Source: Pseudomonadales bacterium
GTDB taxonomy: Bacteria > Pseudomonadota > Gammaproteobacteria > Pseudomonadales > Azotimanducaceae
DNA length: 32,127 bases
Direction of reading: 5' to 3'
Assembly: GCA_022827905.1 (NCBI GenBank)
Contig: JAJEIQ010000038.1
Location: 1-32,127, forward strand
The notes below the pieces were generated by a model that saw nothing but the letters and a program-made list of their open reading frames with translations, searched no databases and was not told the origin of the DNA. Of the stretch, positions 20,945 through 32,127 are shown one piece after another. The position numbers and the translations under genes are program-made. Each line of letters starts with the position of its first letter. Position 1 is the stretch's first letter.

Positions 20945-21919
20945 TTGGCCGGGATCAAGATCGACCCAAGCGCCCCCGTAAAGCTGGAGCCGGTGGCCAT
21001 CGCCAAGCCTTGGGGCCGGGAGATCTGGCATTCGGCAATTGAAGCCCGAGGGGAGAGCGCGGTGCGCACTGCCGCAGGTTCCGTGCCGTTGTCGCAATAC
21101 CTTGAAGCGGTCGGCATCGAGGCGCCGGTGGTCCTGTTGAAGGTGCTTGATCCCGATCCCACGCCCGTGCTCGGCGATCTTTACTTCGAGGTGCACGAGC
21201 GCAAGCGCGAGCTGTACGTGGTCACCGCCATCGACCCCACGGCTTGGCCCGATGGCTGCGGGCGCATTCGCCTCGGCATGAACCAGGCGCGGCGGCGGGC
21301 CTACGGGAACGATGCGGCCTTTCGCGCCGCCTACTTGGAGGCCGTGCGGGCCTATGAGCGGGAGCGCCGCGCCATCGATCGGGGGGAGCGTCCGCCGGGG
21401 GATGCGGAACGCGAAAAACGAGCCCTCATGGAGGCGTTCACCGCTTCGTCCCCGTTGCGGGTTGGCGACGTGGTGGCGTTGCCGCCTTGGATGCCGCACG
21501 CCCTGCAGCACGGCGTTCGGGTGGTGGAGTTCCAGACGCCGACTTATGAGCGCCGCATCATTTCCTTTGCTCAGAAGGTGGCCACCCAAGGGCATTGGGA
21601 CAGCGAAGAGGCCATTGCCCGCATGAGCTTGGATCCGCCGCCGCCGTCGTCGTTCGAGGAGGTCGCCCCCGGCGTGGAGCGGATCGCCGCCTTCGACGAC
21701 TTTGGCGTCTGGCGCGCGGCCCTGCGCCCGCATCGCGCCATTGCCTTGCCGCCCGATGCGCCCTACGCGCTCTGCATGGCTATCGGCGGTGCCGTCCAGG
21801 TTGGCGGTTTGCGCCTAGCCGCCGAACAGGCCTGTTTGGCGCCTCGGGCAAGCTTACGGCAGCTTGGCTTGCGGGGCGAGCATGGGGCAATCTGCCTGTT
21901 GGCGGCGCTTGGCCTGTAG
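20945..21919 (+). CDS. Cupin protein, mannose-6-phosphate isomerase-like
   Basis: 324 residues. KPWGREIWHS (about 21-30) and GDLYFEVHERKRELYVVT (about 78-95) recall the opening and the metal-binding strands of type I phosphomannose isomerases (KPWG, then E-V-H). A charged helical insert follows (about 120-165), then LRVGDVVALPPWMPHALQHGVRVVEFQTPTYER, a cupin motif with a metal-type His. The C-terminal third is a second, poorer beta barrel. It may be a sugar-phosphate isomerase or a non-catalytic cupin. The start is TTG 20945 with AGGA upstream. It lies 83 bases before the first GPP34-P450 gene, same strand, and could belong to that operon. Confidence 0.65.
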   Translation: MAGIKIDPSAPVKLEPVAIAKPWGREIWHSAIEARGESAVRTAAGSVPLSQYLEAVGIEAPVVLLKVLDPDPTPVLGDLYFEVHERKRELYVVTAIDPTAWPDGCGRIRLGMNQARRRAYGNDAAFRAAYLEAVRAYERERRAIDRGERPPGDAEREKRALMEAFTASSPLRVGDVVALPPWMPHALQHGVRVVEFQTPTYERRIISFAQKVATQGHWDSEEAIARMSLDPPPPSSFEEVAPGVERIAAFDDFGVWRAALRPHRAIALPPDAPYALCMAIGGAVQVGGLRLAAEQACLAPRASLRQLGLRGEHGAICLLAALGL

Positions 21920-22002: not shown

Positions 22003-24012
22003 ATGAGATTCGCCGAGGAGATACTTCTGCTGCTGTTGAAGGAGGACACGGGCTATGTTGTGCCCGTTCCGGAGTGGAAGATGTCGTGCGCCCTAGCCGG
22101 TGCGGTGTTGATGGACTTGGCGATGGAGAATCGCATTGACTCGGACTTGGAGACCCTCACCGTCATCGATGCCACGCCCACCGGCGACAATCAGCTCGAC
22201 CCGACTTTGGCCGAAATTGCGGCGGACGACGAAACTCATGCGCCGCAATACTGGGTGGAGCGAATTGCCCAACGTGCGGATGCCATCACCGAATCGGCGT
22301 TGGAAGGCTTGGTTGAAATGGGCATTCTCGACTTCGATTCCGGGGGCTTCTGGTCCCTCTCCGCCAAGGTGGAGCGGTCCGGCCGCTACCCGACCGTTGA
22401 CGGTCGGGCGGGGGAGGAGATCAAGGGCAGGATAATGCGCACGCTGCTCGATGACGAGATACCGGACCCCCGCGAAGTGGCCATTATCGGGCTGGTCAAC
22501 AACTGCGGCGGCTTTCAGGCGCTGATGGAGCCGGAGGCGTTCGAGCTCGCCAAGGAGCGCATCGAACTCTTCAGCGGCATGGACCTGATTGGGCGGACGA
22601 TTGCGGCTGCGGTGCGCAGTTCCTACCGCCCCCCGGAAAGCATGCGTTCCATTCGGCGTCGGCAGTTGCCGGTGGTGGGTTTGTCCGCCATGTTGTTCTC
22701 CAAAATTTTCCGCTCCGGCAATCTGCCCGAGTTCATGGCCGAGCAAAGCAAGGTGCATGGCCCGGTTTTCGAGCTCCGGGCGCCGGGCCGCAAGATGGTG
22801 GTGCTGGCGGGGGCGAGCGCCAACCGGTGGGTCGGCCGCAAGGGACGCCACTTTCTGCGCACCAGGGACTACCTGGAGGACTTCCAGACCCAATGGGGAA
22901 CGGCCCGCTCGATTGCGAGCATGGACGGCGCGGAGCACTATCGCATGCGCAAGGCCGTTCGGGCCGGCAATGCCCGGGCCGTGGTCGAGGACCGGCTGGC
23001 CGAAGTGTTCGCCCTTGGCCGGCGCAGTTTCCGGGAGTGGGGAGTCGGCAAGGCCGTGCCCGATGGCGGGGAGATGACCTGCCAGCGATTGATCGGCGAG
23101 CAGATCGCCCGGCTCAGCGCGAGCATCGACCCTTCCGGGGGGGGGGCGGTGCTCGATGATCTCCTGCGCTACGAGTACCGCGCCTTGCTCGTTCACGTGC
23201 TTGGGATCTTGCCCAAGTTCACGTTGCGCACCCGGAAAATGAAGCGGGCACTGGCGGGCATCCTGGACCTCTATGCGCAGATTCACGCTTCCCACACGCC
23301 GGCCCAGCGGGCGGGCAAGCGGCGGGACTTGGTCGATGACCTGATGGAACTGCACCAGGGCGACCCCCAGTTCCTGCCGGAAACGGACCTCGGCTTTGCG
23401 TTCATTGCGCCGCTGATTGCGGGTCACTACCTAGGCAGCGCCATGGCCTTCGCGATCTACGAAATGCTGGTTAATCCCCATCTCAAGGATGCGATCGCGG
23501 CAGAAGCCGATGCGTTGTTCGCGAACGGCGACCCGGTTGCCGCTGATCTGGACCTCGACGCCATTGACGCGACCCACCGCTTCGCAATGGAAACCCTGCG
23601 GCTGCATCCGGTGATACCGATGCAGATGCGCACCGCCATGAACGCGTTCGAGATCGATGGCATGGAGATTCCCGCCGGCGCCAGCGTCACGGTTGCCTTC
23701 TCGGCGCCGCACTTCATGGATAAGCACTTCAAGGAGCCGCTCAAGTTCGACATTGAACGGTTTGCGCCGCCCCGGGAGGAACACCGGCAACCGGGCGCCT
23801 ACGCGCCGTTTGGCATGGGCACTCACATGTGCGGCGGGTCGCGCTGGACCGAGTTGCAAATGGCGGCCAACCTGCTGCTGATCGTCCGCCACCTGGAGTT
23901 GGAGATGGTGCCGGCGAACTACAAGCTCAAGCTCAACCCGTTGCCGAAAATCAGCTTGAACAAGCGCTTTGGATTTCGCGTGACTGGCTACCGGCATCCC
24001 ATCGATCCATGA
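22003..24012 (+). CDS. GPP34 (GOLPH3-like) domain fused to cytochrome P450, copy 1
   Basis: 669 residues. Residues 1 to about 212 are a GPP34 domain: MRFAEEILLLLLKEDTGYV, LAGAVLMDLAMENRI, IDATPTGDNQLDPTLAEI, LEGLVEMGILDFDSGGFW. From about 215 to the end is a P450: CGRKGRHFLR/DGAEHYRMRKAV C-helix region, the ExxR pair Glu530-Arg533 (METLRLHPVIP), and the heme loop APFGMGTHMCGG with Cys610. The I helix (471-480, LIAGHYLGSA) lacks the usual acid-Thr pair. No membrane anchor or signal is present; GPP34 domains bind membrane lipid head groups, so peripheral membrane docking is likely. ATG 22003 follows GAGGGG and starts GPP34 correctly. The stop overlaps the efflux gene (ATGA). Confidence 0.93.
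   Translation: MRFAEEILLLLLKEDTGYVVPVPEWKMSCALAGAVLMDLAMENRIDSDLETLTVIDATPTGDNQLDPTLAEIAADDETHAPQYWVERIAQRADAITESALEGLVEMGILDFDSGGFWSLSAKVERSGRYPTVDGRAGEEIKGRIMRTLLDDEIPDPREVAIIGLVNNCGGFQALMEPEAFELAKERIELFSGMDLIGRTIAAAVRSSYRPPESMRSIRRRQLPVVGLSAMLFSKIFRSGNLPEFMAEQSKVHGPVFELRAPGRKMVVLAGASANRWVGRKGRHFLRTRDYLEDFQTQWGTARSIASMDGAEHYRMRKAVRAGNARAVVEDRLAEVFALGRRSFREWGVGKAVPDGGEMTCQRLIGEQIARLSASIDPSGGGAVLDDLLRYEYRALLVHVLGILPKFTLRTRKMKRALAGILDLYAQIHASHTPAQRAGKRRDLVDDLMELHQGDPQFLPETDLGFAFIAPLIAGHYLGSAMAFAIYEMLVNPHLKDAIAAEADALFANGDPVAADLDLDAIDATHRFAMETLRLHPVIPMQMRTAMNAFEIDGMEIPAGASVTVAFSAPHFMDKHFKEPLKFDIERFAPPREEHRQPGAYAPFGMGTHMCGGSRWTELQMAANLLLIVRHLELEMVPANYKLKLNPLPKISLNKRFGFRVTGYRHPIDP
23137..23146 (+). 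repeat. Run of ten G inside the first GPP34-P450 gene
   Basis: Ten consecutive G occupy codons 379-382 (Gly-Gly-Gly-Ala) in the P450 part. The paralogue has no equivalent run. Such tracts slip easily during replication; gain or loss of one base would shift the frame and truncate the protein before the ExxR and heme motifs. It could also be a sequencing-error spot, though the frame is intact as given. Confidence 0.8.
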
Positions 24013-25466
24013 GGATAGCGGCCTCCCTCACGGGATTGCTGGTGGCGGCTTGCTCCCTGGTGCCGCCGACCCCGCTCCCCGAGGCGGCGTCGGATCGATT
24101 GGAGAATGTCGCTGCAACAGGGGTGGACGGCCGGCACCAACCGCTTGAATGGTGGAAGTCCTTCGCGGACCCGGTTCTCGACCGGGTCATGGAAACGGCG
24201 CTCGACTCAAGTTATGACCTTGCCGAAGCGGTTGCCCGGGTTGATCAGGCCCGGGCGCGGGCGCGCATCGCCGCTGCGGCGCGCTTTCCGACCGCTCAAG
24301 CGTCACTTGGCGCGAGCCGATTTGATGCGCCAACCAATGCCGGCTTGGGCGCCCAGCTTGACGAACTCGGGCTCGGCTCCGAAGTGACCGAGGCCTTTGG
24401 CGTCACGCTGCCGGACCGGCTGGACCTGACCACCTACACACTGGGCGCGAACTTCGCCTACGAGGCGGACTTTTGGGGCCGCCACCGCAATGCAGCGCTG
24501 GCTGCGGGCGCGGAGCACCTGGCCTCCGAGGCGGACTTTCAGGCTGCGCAAATTGGCGTTCTGGCGGAAACGGTTGCGACCTACCTCGAAATCGTCGATC
24601 TGCGTTGCCAGCGGCGCCTGGCCACCGAAATGGCCGCGATTTTCGAAGAGCAGGCATCGTTGGCGGCGGCCGGCTACGAACGCGGCCTGACGGATGTTCG
24701 CGATGTCTATGCCGCACAGCGCAGCCTCGCCGATGCGCAGGCCGAATTGCCGCGCATGACGAGTCGCCTTGCCGACGCCGAAGGGCGTCTCTGGATCCTG
24801 CTCGGCGGGCATCGCGCGGAGCTTGAGAGCCTGCTGCCGGACGCGCTCAAACCGGCTGCGCCGTCCGTCCCGGTGCCGACGGGAATCCCTGCGGACCTGC
24901 TGACGCAGCGGCCCGACGTCAGCGCCGCGCGGCAGCGGGTGGAGGCTGCCCGCTTCGCGGTGGGCACCCACCGGGCGGCGTTGCTGCCCTCGCTGTCCCT
25001 GTCCGGTTCCATCGGTTTGCAGGCGACCGAATCCGGCGAGTGGTTCGATCCGGATCAGTGGTTCGAGAATCTGAGTGCGAACCTGCTCCTGCCGGTGTTT
25101 CAGGGCGGTCGGCTGCGCGGCAATGTGGCGCTTGCCGAAGCCCAGCTCGCCGAGGCTGGGGCGGCGTTCGGGCGCTCGGTCGTGACGGCCGTCAGCGAGG
25201 TCGAAGCCGCGTTGACCGGGTTGGAGAGCAGCGGTCGCCGCGTTACCCTGCTGAGGACGCTTTTGGAGGCGGCCGAAGCCGAGGCGGCACTGCTGGAGCA
25301 GCGCTATTTGGCCGGCGTGGTGGACTATGGGGGTTACCTGGGGGCTCGCCAGCTTCTGGTCAGCGCCGAATCGGCACTGGCCGGCGGCAAGCGCGACCTA
25401 GGCTACGCGCGCTTGGCGTTGCATCGGGCGCTCGGCGGTGCTTGGACCGCGGATACGGAGGACTAA
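24009..25466 (+). CDS. Outer-membrane efflux lipoprotein, TolC/NodT type
   Basis: 485 residues. The signal peptide ends in a lipobox with Cys15 (LLVAAC). The NodT-like opening QPLEWWKSFADPVLDRVMETALDSSYDL (about 40-67) is followed by two long alpha-helical repeats of the outer-membrane efflux channel; landmarks are YEADFWGRHRNAALAA (about 149-164), the central LTQRPDVSAARQRVEAARFAVG, and LLPVFQGGRLRGNVALAEAQ near residue 360. It forms the outer-membrane duct of a tripartite pump. Its ATG overlaps the P450 stop, so the P450 is translated just ahead of the export machinery. The adaptor gene begins two bases after its stop. Confidence 0.95.
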   Translation: MRIAASLTGLLVAACSLVPPTPLPEAASDRLENVAATGVDGRHQPLEWWKSFADPVLDRVMETALDSSYDLAEAVARVDQARARARIAAAARFPTAQASLGASRFDAPTNAGLGAQLDELGLGSEVTEAFGVTLPDRLDLTTYTLGANFAYEADFWGRHRNAALAAGAEHLASEADFQAAQIGVLAETVATYLEIVDLRCQRRLATEMAAIFEEQASLAAAGYERGLTDVRDVYAAQRSLADAQAELPRMTSRLADAEGRLWILLGGHRAELESLLPDALKPAAPSVPVPTGIPADLLTQRPDVSAARQRVEAARFAVGTHRAALLPSLSLSGSIGLQATESGEWFDPDQWFENLSANLLLPVFQGGRLRGNVALAEAQLAEAGAAFGRSVVTAVSEVEAALTGLESSGRRVTLLRTLLEAAEAEAALLEQRYLAGVVDYGGYLGARQLLVSAESALAGGKRDLGYARLALHRALGGAWTADTED

Positions 25467-25467
25467 C

Positions 25468-26670
25468 ATGGGCAGACGCTCGAGTTACTTGATTGCCGCG
25501 GCGATAGTCATTGGCGCCGTTGTCCTGGCCACCTTCCTCGTGTCGCTTGCCCCGGAGCCCGAACGCCGGGTGCCACCGTCGCAAATTCCCTACGTGGAAA
25601 CGGCCAGGATCGTTGCCGGCTCCGGCTCCATTCCCGTGTACGGCGCCGGCACGGTGCGGCCAAGCGCTGAAATTGACGTTGCGCCCCAAGTCGGCGGCCG
25701 CGTCGTCTGGGTCGATCCGGGGTTTGTCAGTGGTGGGCGGGTCGCTGCGGGCCAGACGTTGTTTCGCATTGAGGAGGCCGACTACCAATATCGCGTTCGG
25801 GAGGCCGAAGCGGCTGTTGCGGACCGTAAGGTTGCCTTCCTTGAAGCCCAGGAGGATGCGGCCATCGCCCAATCGGAGTACGAGCGCTACTCCGGCCGGC
25901 CGGGCGCAGCGGCCTCGCTGGGGCCGGCAAGTCGCCTGACCCTGCGTGAACCGCAGTTGGAAGCGGCCGAGGCGGCGCTGAAGCGGGAGGAGGCACGGTT
26001 GGCCGAGGCGAAGTTGGCGTTGGCGCGAACCCGCATCAAGGCGCCCTTCGACGGCTTCGTACGCGAGGAGTCGGTCGCCTTGGGGCAATTGGCGGCGCCC
26101 GGCGAACCGGTGGGGCGCTTGTTCGCTGCGGACGCCGTCGAAGTGGTTGTTTCGCTATCCGATGCCGACGCGGCGCTGATCCCGGGGCTATGGGCGACAG
26201 CGGAAAGGGCAGTCGCGGCCCGTGTGATCGCCGACTATGGCGGCGTCGATTACATTTGGCAGGGCCACGTGGACCGGGCCGAAGCCTCGCTTGACGAAGG
26301 GACGCGAACCATCGACGTGATCGTGCGGGTGCCGGATCCCTTCACGGCTGGCGAACCGTTGGAGGCGGCTGGCGGCCTGCTGAGTCACCCGCCGCTGCTG
26401 GTCGGGAAGTTCGCGGAAGTGGCAATTGAAGGACTGGCGCCCAGTGACTACTTCCAAGTTCGGCGCGCGGCGCTGCAGCCCGGCAATGAGATCTGGGCGG
26501 TGGGCCGCGATGGCACCGTGCGAATCGTGCCGGTGCGCGTTCTGCAGCGCGGCAATGATGAGGTCTTCGTGACCGGGGCGCTGAATCGTGGTGAAGCAGC
26601 CATCATCAGTGGACTGCAGTTCGCCACCAGCGGCATGGCGGTGCGCACCGCAGGCGCTGCGGCCCAATGA
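25468..26670 (+). CDS. RND periplasmic adaptor (membrane fusion protein)
   Basis: 400 residues. N-terminal membrane anchor (YLIAAAIVIGAVVLATFLVSL, about 7-27). Then the lipoyl-type half VYGAGTVRPSAEIDVAPQVGGRVVWVDPGFVSGGRVAAGQTLFRIEEADY, an alpha-hairpin (about 110-185), the second half TRIKAPFDGFVREESVALGQLAAPGEPVGRLF, and beta-barrel and membrane-proximal domains to the end. It bridges the RND pump and the outer-membrane duct. GGAGG lies nine bases before ATG 25468. The RND gene starts at its ATGA stop. Confidence 0.95.
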   Translation: MGRRSSYLIAAAIVIGAVVLATFLVSLAPEPERRVPPSQIPYVETARIVAGSGSIPVYGAGTVRPSAEIDVAPQVGGRVVWVDPGFVSGGRVAAGQTLFRIEEADYQYRVREAEAAVADRKVAFLEAQEDAAIAQSEYERYSGRPGAAASLGPASRLTLREPQLEAAEAALKREEARLAEAKLALARTRIKAPFDGFVREESVALGQLAAPGEPVGRLFAADAVEVVVSLSDADAALIPGLWATAERAVAARVIADYGGVDYIWQGHVDRAEASLDEGTRTIDVIVRVPDPFTAGEPLEAAGGLLSHPPLLVGKFAEVAIEGLAPSDYFQVRRAALQPGNEIWAVGRDGTVRIVPVRVLQRGNDEVFVTGALNRGEAAIISGLQFATSGMAVRTAGAAAQ

Positions 26671-29600
26671 GCGAGGCCGACATCTATCGGGATGAGCCGA
26701 GCGGACCGATCGCCTACATGGCGCGCAACCGTGTTGCCGCCAACCTGCTCATGTTGGGCATTCTGGCTGCCGGGCTGGTATCGCTGACCGGCCTTGAGCG
26801 GGAGGCTTGGCCGACCGTGCCGTTCAACATGATCGAAGTCACCATGGCCTACCCGGGCGCTGCGCCCGATGAGGTGGAGGAATCGATCGTTGCGAAGATC
26901 GAGGAGCAGGTCCGCGGATTGGAGGACGTGAAGTCGGTCAAGTCGGTGGCGGCGCCGGGCATGGCATCGGTCCGGGTTGAATTGAAGTTCGACACGGACA
27001 TCAGCCGGGCGATGGATGAAGTCGAGTCGGCGGTGGCCCGGATTCAGTCCTTCCCCGGTGCCGCGGAGCGCCCGGAGTTCCGCGAGATGAGCAATCGCCA
27101 AAGTATGATGCGCCTGATCGTTTACGGCGGCATCTCCGAGCGCGCGCTCAAGGAACTTGCTTACCAGATTGAGGATGAGTTGGCGTCGTTGCCTAGCGTG
27201 TCCTACGTTGAGGTCAGCGGAACAAGGGACTACGAGATCTCCATCGAAGTGCCCCTCGTCCGCCTTCGGGGGCTCGGGCTCACGTTGCAGGATGTTGCGG
27301 ATGCGGTGCGGCGCTCCTCGCTCGACCTATCGGCCGGAAGCATCGATACCCGCGATGCTCAAGTGCGCATCCGCACCCGGGGCCAGCGCTATGATCAGCA
27401 GGACTTCGAGGGAATCATCCTGGTTGCTCGGCCGGACGGCACAGTGTTGCGTTTGGGCGACGTTGCCGAGGTGCGCGATGGCTTCCAGAACACTGACCTG
27501 ATCGTTCGCCATCAGGGAATGCCCGCCCTCTTCGTTGAAGTTTCCCGCGCCGACGGCGAGCAAGTGATGGATGTCGCCGCCGCAGTTCATGACCACATCA
27601 CCAACGCAATCGTTCCGTCGCTGCCCGAAGGCGTGGGCGTCACGGTCTGGAACGACGACTCCCAGACCTATTCAGAGCGTCTTGACCTGCTGCTTAAGAA
27701 CGGCCTGCTAGGGCTGGGGCTGGTGGTGATTGCGTTGGCCCTGTTCCTGGAGATACGGCTCGCGGTGTGGGTGGTGGTTGGGTTGCTGACGGCGGGCATG
27801 GGTGCCTTGGCTGTCATGCTCGCCTTCGACCTTGCGATCAATACGATCTCGCTGTTCTCCTTCGTGCTGGCCATCGGCATCATCGTCGATGACGCGATCG
27901 TGGTGGCCGAGCACATTCATCAGGAACGCATGCGGGGCACGGCCGACCTTGCCGCGGCAATCCGGGGCGCCCGCCGCATCCGGGGGCCGCTGACCTTTGC
28001 GGTTCTTACCTCGGTGGTGGCGTTCGTCCCACTGCTCTACATCCCCGGTGGCATCGGCGAAGTGTGGACCGCGCTGCCGGTCATCATCATCGGGATGCTG
28101 CTGATTTCCTTGGTCGAGTCGCTCTTCATCCTGCCGAGCCACCTGTCACGCCTGCACGGACCCGATTGGACCCCCACCCGGCCAATCGACCGGTTTTTTG
28201 CAGGCACCCAGGCCCGTGTGGGCCGGGCGCTGGATCGTTTCCTCGACGGTCCGCTGGACCGCGCCTTGCGATTCACCACGCATCAGCCCGCCGTGGTGGT
28301 GGCTGGGGTCGTTGGCCTGTTCATCTTCAGCGTCTCCTTGGTGCCGGCGGGCGTGGTGCCCACCACCTTTGCTGACGTGGTTGAGGGCGACTTCGTAACC
28401 GCCACGTTGGAGATGCCGGAAGGGACCACGGCGCAACGCACCTATCAGGTGGCTATGGAGTTGGTGCGCGACGGTGAGCGGGTGCTCAAGCGGCTCTCGC
28501 GCCAGCAGGACGACGATGCGCCGCCGCTGAAGGTCGGCGTCACCGTGACGGTTGGGCAGGAGCCTCGGGTGGAAGGGGGCGGTCTCAATCCCGCGCCCAC
28601 CTTGAACCCCCGGGCCAACATCGCCACCGTCGAGTTCAAGCTTGTAAGCGCCCAGCAGCGCGACCTCTCCACCATCGCCGTCATGCAGGCCTGGCGCGAC
28701 GAGGTTGGCATTCTGCCCTATGCCCGCGGTATCGCCTTCAGCGGCGAGGTCATTGATCTCGGTAGTCCGGTGGAGGCTGTGCTGTCCCACCCGGATCCCG
28801 AACGCCTCAATGAAATAGCTGATGCGGTGGTTGATGGACTGCGCAGCGTCGCGGGCATCTTCGACGTTCGCTCGGACCACGCGCCCGGCGTCAGGGAAGT
28901 GCAGCTCGAATTACGGCCCGAGGCGCGCACGCTAGGGCTCACTTTGGAGGGATTGGCACAACAGGCGCGCGCGGCCTTCTTTGGCGCGGAGGCCTTGCGG
29001 ATACAACGCGGCACCGAGGAGGTGCGCGTTTATGTGCGCCTGCCGGCGGATGAGCGCAACGCCATCACCGATGTGGAGTCCTACGTCGTGCGCGCGCCGG
29101 GCGGGGCCGAGGTGCCGCTGCGGCAGGTAGCATCGTTCCGCATGGGCACCGCCCAGCCGTCCATTCGCCGCCAGGACGGTCGGCGCGTCGTCACAGTCAC
29201 CGCCGATGTGGATGAGGGCGTGATTTCCGGCGGGGAGGCCAATGCCGTCCTTAGAGAAACCATCCTGGCGGAACTCAGCGCCGTCCATCCGGAGCTCACC
29301 TACACCTTTGGCGGCGAGCAGCAGCAGCAAATCGAGTCCTTGGGCGCCCTGTACCGGGGCTTTCTGCTGGCCATGCTGCTGATCTTCGCGCTGCTGGCCA
29401 TTGCGCTCGGCTCCTACGGCAAGCCGTTCATCGTCATGGCCATCGTGCCGTTCGGCCTCATCGGCGTGGTCCTCGGCCATTTGGTGCTGGGGGTGGCGAT
29501 TAGCGCCGCTTCATTCCTCGGTTTCTTCGGGCTGAGCGGTGTGGTGGTCAACGACTCCTTGGTGATGATCGACTTCATCGACCAGCGGTTGAAGGAGGGC

Positions 29601-29867
29601 GCGACGCCTCGGGAGGCGATCATAGAGGGGGCCAAGGGACGCTTCCGCCCCATCCTGCTGACTTCCGTTACCACCTTCCTCGGCTTCACCCCGCTCATCC
29701 TGGAGCGGGCCATTCAGGCCCAGTTCCTAGTGCCGTTCGCCGCCTCCCTTGGAGTTGGCATCCTCATCGCCACGGCATTGCTGATGGTTCTGGTTCCCGC
29801 GCTGATGGCGATTTACCTGCGCGTCAACTCCTCACGCATAGCAGCCGCTACGCCCGCTTCGCCCTAG
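26667..29867 (+). CDS. RND efflux pump, HAE1-like inner-membrane subunit
   Basis: 1066 residues, twelve transmembrane helices and two large periplasmic loops. It uses the proton gradient to expel hydrophobic or amphipathic compounds. The proton-relay Asp408-Asp409 in LAIGIIVDDAIVVAEH match AcrB Asp407-408. Porter-domain landmarks include EVTMAYPGAAPDEVEESIVAKIEEQV (about 53-78). TM10 reads FGLSGVVVNDSLVMIDFID: the Lys of AcrB TM10 is not at its place, as in the subfamily with this VVVNDSL pattern, so the coupling residues differ from AcrB. It is the last gene of the P450-duct-adaptor-pump run and ends eight bases from the convergent second P450. Confidence 0.96.
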   Translation: MSEADIYRDEPSGPIAYMARNRVAANLLMLGILAAGLVSLTGLEREAWPTVPFNMIEVTMAYPGAAPDEVEESIVAKIEEQVRGLEDVKSVKSVAAPGMASVRVELKFDTDISRAMDEVESAVARIQSFPGAAERPEFREMSNRQSMMRLIVYGGISERALKELAYQIEDELASLPSVSYVEVSGTRDYEISIEVPLVRLRGLGLTLQDVADAVRRSSLDLSAGSIDTRDAQVRIRTRGQRYDQQDFEGIILVARPDGTVLRLGDVAEVRDGFQNTDLIVRHQGMPALFVEVSRADGEQVMDVAAAVHDHITNAIVPSLPEGVGVTVWNDDSQTYSERLDLLLKNGLLGLGLVVIALALFLEIRLAVWVVVGLLTAGMGALAVMLAFDLAINTISLFSFVLAIGIIVDDAIVVAEHIHQERMRGTADLAAAIRGARRIRGPLTFAVLTSVVAFVPLLYIPGGIGEVWTALPVIIIGMLLISLVESLFILPSHLSRLHGPDWTPTRPIDRFFAGTQARVGRALDRFLDGPLDRALRFTTHQPAVVVAGVVGLFIFSVSLVPAGVVPTTFADVVEGDFVTATLEMPEGTTAQRTYQVAMELVRDGERVLKRLSRQQDDDAPPLKVGVTVTVGQEPRVEGGGLNPAPTLNPRANIATVEFKLVSAQQRDLSTIAVMQAWRDEVGILPYARGIAFSGEVIDLGSPVEAVLSHPDPERLNEIADAVVDGLRSVAGIFDVRSDHAPGVREVQLELRPEARTLGLTLEGLAQQARAAFFGAEALRIQRGTEEVRVYVRLPADERNAITDVESYVVRAPGGAEVPLRQVASFRMGTAQPSIRRQDGRRVVTVTADVDEGVISGGEANAVLRETILAELSAVHPELTYTFGGEQQQQIESLGALYRGFLLAMLLIFALLAIALGSYGKPFIVMAIVPFGLIGVVLGHLVLGVAISAASFLGFFGLSGVVVNDSLVMIDFIDQRLKEGATPREAIIEGAKGRFRPILLTSVTTFLGFTPLILERAIQAQFLVPFAASLGVGILIATALLMVLVPALMAIYLRVNSSRIAAATPASP

Positions 29868-29875
29868 GACGCCGC

Positions 29876-31876
29876 CTACACGCGGTTCCTGACTTCGGCC
29901 ACGCGAAACTTGAGCTTTTGGTTGGGGGCGGCGGTCGGGAACGGGTTGATGCCCATTCGATAGTTCTCGGGCACCACCTCCAGCTTGACGTGGTGCGCGA
30001 TCAGCAGCAGGTTCACGGCGATTTGCAGTTCCAGCCACCGGTGTCCCAGGCAGGTGTGTGTGCCGAGCCCGTAGGGCGCGTAGGCGCCGGGGGCCATGTG
30101 CTCGTCCCGCCCGGGCAGGTAGCGGTCGATGTCGAACTTCAACGGATCGGGGAAAAAGTCCGCGCTATAGTGCGTCACCGTGTGGCAGATCAGCAGCCGA
30201 GTCTGCGGCGGTATCTCGAAGCCATCGACGACGCATTGGTTCATGACCGTTCTGAACTGCCAGGGAATCACCGGGTAAAGACGCTCGGATTCGAGAAACA
30301 GCCGGTGCGTCACGTCCATGCTCTCGCGGTTGAAGGCTTCCGCCTTGGGGTCGTGGCCGTTGCCGAACAGGGCGTCCGCTTCCTTGCGAACCGCCTCGTA
30401 CATCTCCGGGTGGCGCAGCATGGCATAGACGGCGAAGGCCAGCCCGCTGCCGAGATAGATGCTGGCGACCATGGATGCGACGAATGGGAAGATAACGTCC
30501 GTTTCGGGCAGGAATTGCGGATCGTTCCGATGCAGTTCGAGCACCGCGTCGGAGAGGTCGAGGGGCTTGCCTGCCCGCTGAGCCGGTGTGTGCGATGAGT
30601 GGATCGACTCCTGAAGCACGGCGATGTGCTTCTTGGCGCGCCTCATTCTTGGCGTTGACAGCATGAATTTCGGCAGGGCCCGAATGGTGTGCGTGACTAG
30701 GGCGCGATGTTCGTAGTCGATCAATGCGTCGGCGTACTCACTGCAATCCACCCCGATCAACAGGTGCGAGACTTGGTGGCTGACGTAGTTGCGCAGGGTG
30801 TCCGCCGCACTGAGGACGTCGCCTTTCTGCCACTGGCCGATGCCTTCCTTGCACAGGCTGATGAGTTCCGGCAGCCTTTGCGCCAGCGCGGCACGGGAAT
30901 AGGCTCCTCGCAGCGCCTTGCGCATCTTGTGGTGTTCGGCGCCGTCCATGCCGGGCAGCGATCGAGAAGCCCCGAAGACGCCTTCAAGATCCTTGATGTA
31001 GTCCTTGGAACGCAGATAGAAGCGTCCTTGCTTGTTGACCCACTGGTTGGCTTCGGCGCCCATCAAGGCGACCACTTGCTGCCCGCCCATGCGGATCGGG
31101 ACTTCGGCCACTGAGCCGTACTTGTCGTGGATTTGGCTCATCGCCTTCGGGATGTTGCCGTTAAGGAAGTCCCGCTGCCGGAGGATGTCTACGATCCGCA
31201 GCTTGGGGATGGGCTTGGTCGCCAGAACCCGCCGCGTCATGGGTTTGACGGCGCTTTCCCTTACCGCGGTGAATACGGTTCGGCCCACGATGTCCAGCTT
31301 CGTGAGTGCCTCGATCCGCTCCAGGCTGTCTTGGTAGTCCTCTTCCGACAGGATGAGCTTGAACCCGTCGCCGGAATGCATTAGCCCGATCAGGATGATG
31401 TCCCGCGGAGCCGGGATGGTGTCGTCCATCAACTCGTTGAGAATTCGGGTCCTGGCTTCCAGGCTCACCGTGCTCCTTTCGGCGCTGGGATAGCGGCGTG
31501 AACGGGAAACATCGCGGGACAGTGTCCAGAAGCCGCCCGACTCGTAGTCGAGAATGCCCTTATTGACTAGGCGTTCCAGCGTAGCGGAGACAATCTCGTC
31601 GGATCGGGCGGCAGTCCGCTCGATCCAGTACTGCATGGAGAACGTTTCCGTCGTCTCGCTGATTTCCAGCAGCGTCGGATCGAGCAGCTCGTCGCCGGTT
31701 GGCGTGGCGTCGATGAGGCGCATGGCCTCTAGGTCGGAATCGGTCCGGCCATCAAGGGCAAGATCGGCGAGCACCCCGCCGCCCATCATGCAGGCGAAGT
31801 CCCAGCCGGGGACCATTTCCAGATACCCGCTGTCCTCATTGAGCATCAGCAGGATCAGTTCTTCTGTGAGCCGCAT
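29876..31876 (-). CDS. GPP34 (GOLPH3-like) domain fused to cytochrome P450, copy 2
   Basis: 666 residues with the same architecture as the copy at 22003-24012. GPP34, residues 1 to about 212: MRLTEELILLMLNEDSGYL, MGGGVLADLALDGRT, IDATPTGDELLDPTLLEI, LERLVNKGILDYESGGFW. P450, about 215-666: DGAEHHKMRKALRGAYSRA, Glu529-Arg532 (ESERLYPVIP), heme loop APYGLGTHTCLG with Cys609 and Tyr in place of the usual Phe. The I-helix segment VASIYLGSG again lacks acid and Thr. Shared block SHTPAQRAGK and DPQFLPETD mark common origin, but divergence is large, so the duplication is old. ATG 31876 lines up with copy 1; an in-frame extension reaches into the IS. It is transcribed toward the pump from a separate promoter. 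Confidence 0.93.
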   Translation of the reverse strand: MRLTEELILLMLNEDSGYLEMVPGWDFACMMGGGVLADLALDGRTDSDLEAMRLIDATPTGDELLDPTLLEISETTETFSMQYWIERTAARSDEIVSATLERLVNKGILDYESGGFWTLSRDVSRSRRYPSAERSTVSLEARTRILNELMDDTIPAPRDIILIGLMHSGDGFKLILSEEDYQDSLERIEALTKLDIVGRTVFTAVRESAVKPMTRRVLATKPIPKLRIVDILRQRDFLNGNIPKAMSQIHDKYGSVAEVPIRMGGQQVVALMGAEANQWVNKQGRFYLRSKDYIKDLEGVFGASRSLPGMDGAEHHKMRKALRGAYSRAALAQRLPELISLCKEGIGQWQKGDVLSAADTLRNYVSHQVSHLLIGVDCSEYADALIDYEHRALVTHTIRALPKFMLSTPRMRRAKKHIAVLQESIHSSHTPAQRAGKPLDLSDAVLELHRNDPQFLPETDVIFPFVASMVASIYLGSGLAFAVYAMLRHPEMYEAVRKEADALFGNGHDPKAEAFNRESMDVTHRLFLESERLYPVIPWQFRTVMNQCVVDGFEIPPQTRLLICHTVTHYSADFFPDPLKFDIDRYLPGRDEHMAPGAYAPYGLGTHTCLGHRWLELQIAVNLLLIAHHVKLEVVPENYRMGINPFPTAAPNQKLKFRVAEVRNRV

Positions 31877-31970
31877 TGTGAACAGCCCTCTGCCGGTCTG
31901 AGGCGAAGCCTCGCTAGTGTTGTCAGCGCGACCGTTCTCCGCCATTCCTTGGAACGGACACGACCCAATA

Positions 31971-31999
31971 ATGATAGCGAAAGTGTTAGGGCGTGTTAA
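31971..31999 (-). promoter_or_regulatory. Hybrid promoter: -35 in IS end, -10 in flanking DNA, for GPP34-P450 copy 2
   Basis: On the minus strand TTAACA (31999-31994) and TATCAT (31976-31971) each match five of six consensus bases with the ideal 17-base spacer. The -35 lies in the GTGTTAACAC palindrome at the end of the IS5-family element; the -10 lies outside it. Transcription would start near 31964 and read into the P450 gene at 31876. Confidence 0.6.
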
Positions 32000-32127
32000 C
32001 ACTATCGCAGGGCCTCGACGATGAGGGCGAAGACGATGAAGCCGAGGAACATGACGTCGAGCTTCTCGAAGCGCGAGAAGATGCGCCGGAAGCCCTTGAG
32101 CCGCCGGAACAGGCGCTCCACCTCGTT
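31989..32127 (-). mobile_element. Right end of an IS5-family insertion sequence, truncated by the window
   Basis: The terminal sequence begins about GGGCGTGTTAACACTA at 31989, preceded by TTA, a target-like trinucleotide for the IS427-type branch of IS5. The transposase stop lies 13 bases inside the end, as is common in this group. The other end and the opposite target copy are outside the window, so the exact boundary is an estimate. Confidence 0.7.
32002..32127 (-). CDS. IS5-family transposase, C-terminal fragment in window
   Basis: The last 41 codons are present and in frame to the window edge: NEVERLFRRLKGFRRIFSRF, then EKLDVMFLGFIVFALIVEALR and TAG at 32004-32002. N-E-V-E-R-L-F-R-R-L-K is the ending of the DDE transposase with its final catalytic Glu region (the E in the NxVERxFxxLK motif), characteristic of IS5/IS427 elements. 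The gene continues beyond the window; whether it is intact cannot be judged. Confidence 0.9.
   Translation of the reverse strand, partial: NEVERLFRRLKGFRRIFSRFEKLDVMFLGFIVFALIVEALR

Follow-up and report, generated by a model that had tools for sequence, protein, structure and literature searches.

A bacterial GPP34 (GOLPH3-like) domain is joined to a complete cytochrome P450 in one open frame at positions 22003 to 24012 of a 32,127-nucleotide stretch of contig JAJEIQ010000038.1 (assembly GCA_022827905.1, a Pseudomonadales bacterium of the Azotimanducaceae), and this whole stretch is called the window below. The protein, termed fusion A, belongs to a family of fusions that is conserved in its motifs and its gene neighbourhood and that has moved between bacterial phyla. 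The window also contains a second member, fusion B, and both this second fusion and the altered I-helix of the P450 half were absent from an earlier note on this DNA. We favour, with a probability of roughly 55%, a reading in which the fusion supplies the heme enzyme for a lipid cassette that moves horizontally and most likely serves to tailor and export sterols or related triterpenoids, with carriers that are probably mostly associated with sponges.

The earlier note had called the fusion from the sequence alone, and profile searches, structure prediction and a survey of sequenced genomes all bear that call out. In Pfam, GPP34 (PF05719) matches residues 4-204 of fusion A with an E value of 1.3e-32 (113.9 bits against a cut-off of 29.1), and p450 (PF00067) matches with an E value of 1.1e-40 (140.3 bits against a cut-off of 22.8), its best stretch being residues 404-652. 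A model of the whole protein (AlphaFold2, 60-row alignment) reached a mean predicted local distance difference test score (pLDDT) of 88.1 and a predicted template modelling score (pTM) of 0.85, and all 50 PDB matches listed by Foldseek were P450s, with the BM3 type first. Folded alone from a 49-row alignment, the GPP34 half gave a pLDDT of 86.7, and the chains that it matched at E<=1e-3 were GOLPH3 or Vps74 in eight of eight cases, the best being 9qpq with a TM score of 0.72 by query length. A sequence search agrees with the fold (Vps74 at 2.4e-4, GOLPH3 at 0.0075). The N-terminal half is thus a GPP34 domain by both its curated cut-off and its GOLPH3/Vps74 fold, and the remainder is a cytochrome P450 by its fold, its ExxR motif (E530 and R533) and its Cys heme ligand (Cys610), as the earlier note had read them; by sequence profile its best-scoring solved P450s are CYP51s (1.2e-36). 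An 11-row alignment searched against named genomes gave at least 302 confirmed relatives, the best 80 of which were kept as loci, so the set is biased to the closest. An assembly artefact was considered as the source of the fusion and rejected, with at least one full-length copy (by open reading frame, ORF) in 79 of the 80 kept loci and six phyla represented by title. Thus, neither of the two outcomes that the earlier note had named as fatal to it, a missing GPP34 match and an assembly-made fusion, holds. Broken copies do occur: the fusion is split over two frames in the only kept locus lacking a full-length copy (L136), one partial and one full copy stand in L118, fragments of a second copy lie in two frames in L075, and a partial second copy reaches the contig end in L073. 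The parts of fusion A lie as follows.

22003 to 24012, plus strand: GPP34-P450 fusion A (P0001, 669 residues), with Pfam GPP34 and p450 matches and an AlphaFold2 pLDDT of 88.1
22012 to 22614, plus strand: GPP34 domain of fusion A, placed by the PF05719 profile and by Foldseek
22690 to 24012, plus strand: P450 domain of fusion A, with an approximate start (residue ~230), since profile matches of fusion A to CYP51 and other P450 chains begin at about residues 231-245
23428 to 23430, plus strand: codon of Tyr476, where the acid-alcohol pair of the I-helix would be expected, at or right next to a one-residue deletion (Tyr in 93 of 94)
23590 to 23601, plus strand: ExxR motif, residues 530-533 (E530, R533; E and R in 94 of 94)
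23809 to 23838, plus strand: heme loop, residues 603-612, with Cys610 (Cys in 94 of 94)

The active site was compared across 94 full-length fusions, 83 from named loci and 11 from the window or unnamed relatives, with two duplicate rows among them. The Glu and Arg of ExxR, the heme Cys, and His312 and Arg316 of the C-helix are invariant in this set, and the P450 half would be expected to bind heme in a normal ExxR/Cys frame. The I-helix is one residue shorter, and Tyr stands at the acid-alcohol pair in all fusions except one, followed by Leu in 67, Thr in 18, Val and Met in three each, and Ala and Pro in one each. With the acid changed to Tyr in 93/94, the family lies outside the classical monooxygenase P450s that are defined by this pair. 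The placement of the gap is ambiguous, with MAFFT setting it before the Tyr and HMMER, against CYP51, setting it later; the HMMER placement would assign Tyr to the acid position and the following Leu or Thr to that of the alcohol. As judged from the alignments, the acid is lost under either placement, and the Thr is lost in fusions A and B. The sole fusion that keeps Glu-Thr in the I-helix (G006) branches at the fusion base in both trees, and 16 of 18 stand-alone P450 relatives (two alike in the stretch compared) keep Asp-Thr or His-Thr, which argues that the ancestor was probably an ordinary P450 that became fused to GPP34 and had its I-helix changed afterwards. The other two stand-alone relatives (L048 and L049, from G021 and G052) have the same deletion with Arg for Tyr as well as an altered heme loop (CPAS), and are perhaps fusions that lost their GPP34 half. 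CYP51 was tried as an identity for the P450 half and rejected: fusions A and B lack the His-Thr of the I-helix, and the true CYP51 is a separate gene in the Porisulfidus genome G436. The criteria applied here, His-Thr in the I-helix and family-level identity, are those that we take to define CYP51. With Tyr in place of the I-helix acid and the adjoining Thr mostly gone, the reaction would probably proceed without the usual proton relay, for example as a peroxide-driven or substrate-assisted oxidation, a rearrangement or a C-C cleavage.

The GPP34 half was proposed in the earlier note to dock the P450 on a membrane by analogy with the phosphoinositide-binding GOLPH3, and the phosphoinositide part of this analogy fares poorly in a sequence alignment of 60 fusions. 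Of the residues that we take to form the phosphatidylinositol 4-phosphate (PI4P) pocket of Vps74 (W88, R97, K178 and R181), R97 is replaced by Ala, Val or Gly in 60/60, K178 is replaced by Asp or Glu in 59/60, and no Arg aligns with R181; a Trp near W88 is invariant, but two positions off. Column counts at these positions thus set the fusions apart from the GOLPH3/Vps74 PI4P effectors. A GGFWxL segment, presumably at the position of the GOLPH3/Vps74 membrane hairpin, is conserved (each named residue in 52-57 of 60 fusions), as is a basic linker (R215 in 44/60, Lys or Arg at 220 in 53/60). Because the pocket is not conserved and the hairpin segment and linker are, the GPP34 half is likely a peripheral membrane module that is not likely to bind phosphoinositide, and docking through the hairpin segment and the linker is plausible. 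Such a module would do the job that an N-terminal membrane anchor does in eukaryotic P450s, keeping the mouth of the P450 at the inner membrane, where its lipid would be dissolved. The source genome has a stand-alone GPP34 gene as well (L001, on G000:C4), located between a nitroreductase gene and a VWA-domain gene. Two further GPP34 proteins of this genome (G000:C62, L002:1-1611:+; G000:C19, L003:931-2118:-) extend into a membrane region of several helices that has two H-x13-H pairs and is a possible cytochrome b, and a CXXCH-rich gene comes next in each (Pfam cytochrome c3 for L003). These proteins may join GPP34 to a second kind of heme protein.

The neighbours of the fusion were counted by tblastn with family representatives against the 80 named loci, 51 of which span at least 17 kb and have a full flank. 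A resistance-nodulation-division (RND) permease is found in 55 loci, a Rieske protein in 54, a membrane fusion protein (MFP) in 42, an outer-membrane efflux protein (OMF) in 38, a sterol methyltransferase-like protein (SMT) in 28, a flavin adenine dinucleotide (FAD) oxidoreductase in 21 and an MMPL transporter in six. Within the 51 longer loci, RND or MMPL is present in 47 and at least one of Rieske, SMT and FAD in 45. The median distance to the fusion is 171 bp for the Rieske gene and 191 bp for the RND gene, and the Rieske gene lies upstream on the same strand in 32/54, with less than 300 bp between them in 21. In ten genomes picked for long contigs, KshA_C occurs less than 5 kb from the fusion in eight and is single in seven, so chance co-location is a poor account of the neighbourhood; AcrB-type matches number 2-19 per genome (split hits counted apart). 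The Rieske representative has Rieske and KshA_C domains (1e-19 for the latter) with KshA as its nearest solved chain, and an assignment to SdmA was rejected (2.8e-06, far below the cut-off). The SMT representative combines Methyltransf_11 with Sterol_MT_C (3.5e-16), the FAD representative is of the flavin amine-oxidase type with the amine oxidase LkcE as its nearest solved chain, and the MMPL representative has a Sterol-sensing match of 2.4e-11 and a weak match to the BstA model (1.8e-09, below the cut-off). ERG24-like genes occur in four of the 80 loci, all within the eight from Chloroflexota, with ~30% identity to the ERG24 of the source genome, and the one scanned matches ERG4_ERG24 at 1.4e-38. 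Tandem pairs of ERG4/ERG24-type reductase genes stand a few kb from the fusion in the Chloroflexota loci L141, L144 and L147 (e.g., L141:2534-3670:-). No ferredoxin or reductase partner was seen among the annotated recurrent families, a set built by clustering only ORFs of at least 90 residues and scanning a minority of the clusters. Partners of the fusion would be the KshA-like Rieske oxygenase and, in some genomes, the SMT-like enzyme and the FAD oxidoreductase, and the RND or MMPL pump coupled to the fusion would export the product.

In the window, the fusions flank a complete tripartite RND system.

24009 to 25466, plus strand: outer-membrane efflux protein (OMF), start inferred, 63% identical to the cassette OMF, whose representative is of the OEP family
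25468 to 26670, plus strand: periplasmic adaptor (MFP, HlyD type), start inferred, 63.6% identical to the cassette MFP, whose representative is HlyD_3
26667 to 29867, plus strand: RND permease (AcrB type), with ACR_tran at 26718-29807 and 68% identity to the cassette RND
29876 to 31876, minus strand: GPP34-P450 fusion B (P0002, from an inner ATG at 31876), with Pfam GPP34 at 2.9e-27 and p450 at 5e-34

The stop of fusion A and the start of the OMF share an ATGA at 24009-24012 (a 4-bp overlap), and the adaptor and permease overlap by an ATGA as well, so fusion A, OMF, MFP and RND look like four genes of one operon. Fusion B is convergent to the permease and ends eight bases past its stop; its frame (29876-32002, minus strand) is open to 32002 and beyond, and the two fusions are 45-46% identical. 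Within the same genus, an SMT-like gene lies close by a clade-B fusion in G008 and G002, and in G007 a cassette Rieske gene follows the RND gene at the position that fusion B occupies in the window. The gene immediately 5′ of fusion A (20945-21919, plus strand) has no Pfam or NCBIfam match, and its product resembles class I mannose-6-phosphate isomerases by eye.

By the submitters' titles, the 80 loci comprise 42 from Pseudomonadota, 19 from Acidobacteriota, eight from Chloroflexota, five from Rhodothermota, two from Gemmatimonadota, one from Verrucomicrobiota and three with no phylum given. The closest relative listed, at 91-92% identity to fusion A, is from Candidatus Azophilus lithoversatilis (Ca. 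Azotimanducaceae). The fusion tree divides into clade A (39 rows, with fusion A), clade B (37 rows, with fusion B) and clade C (13 rows, eight of them Chloroflexota), and phyla are intermixed across starred branches (a quick method with SH-aLRT only). The fusions of a Terriglobia genome (G438) and a Rhodothermales genome (G439) are 82.1% identical against 49.4% for RpoB, and those of a Longimicrobiales genome (G444) and a Dehalococcoidia genome (G443) are 74.8% identical against 47.6%. With fusion identity between phyla (82%) this far above that of RpoB (49%), the sequence comparison indicates that the fusion has spread horizontally between phyla, and the key pairs lie on long or complete records, which disfavours binning error. 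The RND protein of the window is 73-76% identical to that of four Rhodothermota loci, which suggests that the pump travels with the fusion. The fusion occurs rarely: the source genome alone carries it among 398 genomes drawn from the phylum at E<=1e-90, full-length fusions occur in at least six of 390 genomes of the order among the matches listed, and one scan of viral contigs found no relative. Thirty fusion GPP34 domains group with that of one degraded copy in a single branch (98/97) that adjoins stand-alone GPP34s of the same bacterial family, a topology that fits a single fusion event. That copy (L155:5718-7361:+, in G441) retains its GPP34 domain, has a degraded P450 half and lies next to an RND gene and an SMT gene; an approximately unbiased (AU) test rejected a single fusion clade that excludes it (p 4.65e-06). 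G441 also has an intact fusion, and remnants of a disrupted RND gene are found close to it. Two clades are represented by adjacent fusions in the window (A and B), L082 (A and B), L118 (a partial A and B), L078 (C and A) and L132 (A and C), which suggests that paired fusions may perform two steps of one pathway; the pair in L117 is B and B. As for the hosts, a sponge is named in one of the 80 titles (L124), RHO, COS or APA prefixes stand in 23, and the remaining titles presumably belong to metagenome-assembled genomes (MAGs) of sponge symbionts; the carriers are likely sponge-associated. The prefixes would fit host sponges named in the available part of PMC8163846. Genus UBA9659 of the same family is described as mainly free-living in what was accessible of PMC12625764.

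The earlier note also proposed a lipid or lipid-dissolved substrate, and the gene neighbourhood is consistent with this proposal. A steroid substrate in particular is suggested by gene context. Contig C77 of the source genome contains an FAD gene, 74-78% identical to the cassette FADs, beside genes for a squalene epoxidase-oxidosqualene cyclase (SQMO-OSC) fusion, ERG24 and an SdmA-like Rieske protein. The SQMO-OSC fusion matches osq_cycl at 5.6e-215 (under its cut-off) and squalene_cyclas over its cut-off, the ERG24 gene product matches ERG4_ERG24 at 1.5e-69, and the Rieske protein matches SdmA at 4.9e-120 (under its cut-off). The Porisulfidus genome G436 has CYP51 (4.5e-105 to a solved CYP51), an SQMO-OSC fusion and an SMT in a row. 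Both SQMO-OSC proteins, from C77 (L148:4752-8561:-) and from G436 (L153:6183-9686:+), combine the epoxidase and the cyclase in one frame of 1168-1270 residues.

Several observations weigh against the steroid reading. Cyclase, squalene epoxidase and SdmA occur in none of the 80 loci and are not in the window, a CYP51 query matched ten loci at 22-29% identity at positions that coincide with the fusion genes themselves, and the cassette lies outside the bacterial sterol biosynthesis clusters when these are defined by cyclase, epoxidase, SdmA, CYP51 or ERG24 in the locus. In 12 fusion-bearing genomes, Sterol_MT_C is absent from five, SQHop_cyclase_C is absent from four, and a SQHop_cyclase_C match in the ~1200-residue frame typical of SQMO-OSC is present in only five (two tested) and lacking in seven; the matches in G438, G441 and G443 may be hopene cyclases. 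Because the cyclase or Sterol_MT_C is missing from part of these genomes, de novo sterol synthesis is not required, and consideration has to be given to sterols that are acquired and to a different lipid. The Rieske, SMT and FAD genes were not found in the window by tblastn, the source contig ends 125 bp past the frame of fusion B, and the KshA_C proteins of the source genome are only ~22-30% identical to the cassette Rieskes. The Rieske gene is not near the fusion in G442 and is ~11 kb away in G444. CYP51 comes only at rank 15 in the Foldseek search with the whole fusion A model, in which the BM3 type leads. The alcohol is possibly retained in the 18 of 94 fusions in which Thr follows the Tyr, CYP51 itself is functional with His in place of the acid, and AcrB-type pumps export a broad range of compounds. 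NCBIfam gives no sterol-enzyme name above its cut-off to the four cassette proteins scanned.

Much of this evidence would also suit a P450 that acts on a different membrane lipid (a fatty acyl, polyketide, carotenoid, hopanoid or dietary terpenoid), with the Rieske, methyltransferase and FAD genes belonging to the pathway of that lipid and the steroid look reflecting superfamily resemblance. The KshA_C, Sterol_MT_C and MMPL matches are indeed at superfamily level, and LkcE as the nearest solved chain of the FAD protein points the same way. This explanation must contend with the FAD gene that adjoins OSC, ERG24 and SdmA in the source genome, with the ERG4_ERG24 genes of the four Chloroflexota loci, with CYP51s as the closest P450s by profile and with the gathering of several steroid-like signals in one neighbourhood, and we consider it possible but doubtful. 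Detoxification, in which the P450s would alter lipophilic toxins from the host or its microbiome for expulsion by the RND pump, could explain both the tripartite AcrB-type pump coupled to fusion A and the spread between phyla. However, a KshA-like Rieske protein that is single in seven of ten genomes and SMT-like partners that recur across phyla would be unusual for general detoxification, and the fusion is kept in two 1.6-Mb genomes, which together make this role improbable. The altered I-helix and the degraded P450 half of the G441 copy beside RND and SMT genes could also be taken to mean that the P450 half is catalytically dead and serves as a heme-binding scaffold or sensor, but the unbroken conservation of the ExxR and heme-ligand residues, together with H312 and R316, renders this very improbable. 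We retain tailoring and export of a sterol or triterpenoid as the preferred function.

The fusion places bacterial GPP34 proteins, about whose role little is known, in a concrete biochemical setting, adds to the P450s an architecture whose active site is unusual, and indicates a mobile cross-phylum cassette with steroid-like enzymes in apparent sponge symbionts. Since the fusion occurs in several phyla of apparent sponge symbionts, beside genes that resemble those for steroid modification and export, the cassette may help make unusual sponge sterols, and it provides a testable gene set for the question of who makes them. Which organism makes these sterols matters for the sterane fossils by which early animals are dated, as set out in the accessible portion of PMC10070321. 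A bolder proposal, which we offer as a long shot, is that the fusions form a new class of P450, tethered by GPP34 and deprived of the oxygen-activating I-helix pair, that acts with the KshA-like Rieske protein to cleave or rearrange the sterol nucleus (e.g., by 9-hydroxylation and then ring opening). Bacteria rather than the animal would then make some of the odd seco-, nor- or ring-altered sponge sterols, the A and B/C paralogues would perform successive steps, and the cassette would pass between phyla inside the sponge.

The earlier note knew of no described system of this form, and none was found among the matches listed from the open-access literature searched: the listed papers pairing GPP34 with cytochrome P450 concerned insects and insecticidal proteins, no paper paired Golgi phosphoprotein with sponge symbionts, and the listed papers joining GOLPH3 with bacterial symbionts included none on such a fusion. 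Each half of the protein has known relatives. GOLPH3 and Vps74 share their fold and Pfam family with the N-terminal half, whereas the fusions lack the presumed PI4P-pocket residues and are joined to an enzyme. Stand-alone bacterial GPP34 proteins such as SCO4440 of Streptomyces belong to the same family and, unlike the fusions, have no enzyme attached; the available part of PMC12402492 links SCO4440 to peptidoglycan and wall-deficient cells and states that GOLPH3-like proteins in prokaryotes were undescribed before that study. CYP51, the sterol 14-alpha-demethylase, supplies the best-scoring solved P450s for the P450 half by profile and yet differs from the fusions in its His-Thr pair and in being encoded separately in Porisulfidus. 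A sponge consortium has P450 domains among its prominent entries, without GPP34, in what was available of PMC5735121. The steroid clusters of sponge symbionts are closer in setting. According to the accessible portion of PMC9531527, 115 of 537 Ircinia MAGs contain ERG24-CYP51-ERG7 clusters, which show transfer, and that of PMC10070321 reports sponge-symbiont SMTs. Sponge symbionts of several phyla, horizontal transfer (in Ircinia) and SMT genes are common to those clusters and to the cassette. Genes like theirs are located on contig C77 of the source genome, and the fusion cassette is a separate locus; the same portions contain no mention of GPP34, KshA-type Rieske or RND (PMC9531527), and the terms P450, Rieske, Golgi and transport are absent from PMC10070321. 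Bacterial sterol transport by BstA, a member of the RND superfamily, offers the last parallel, with a pump of that superfamily adjoining lipid enzymes as it does here, although the pump of the window is instead of the AcrB type and comes with its own adaptor and outer-membrane channel.

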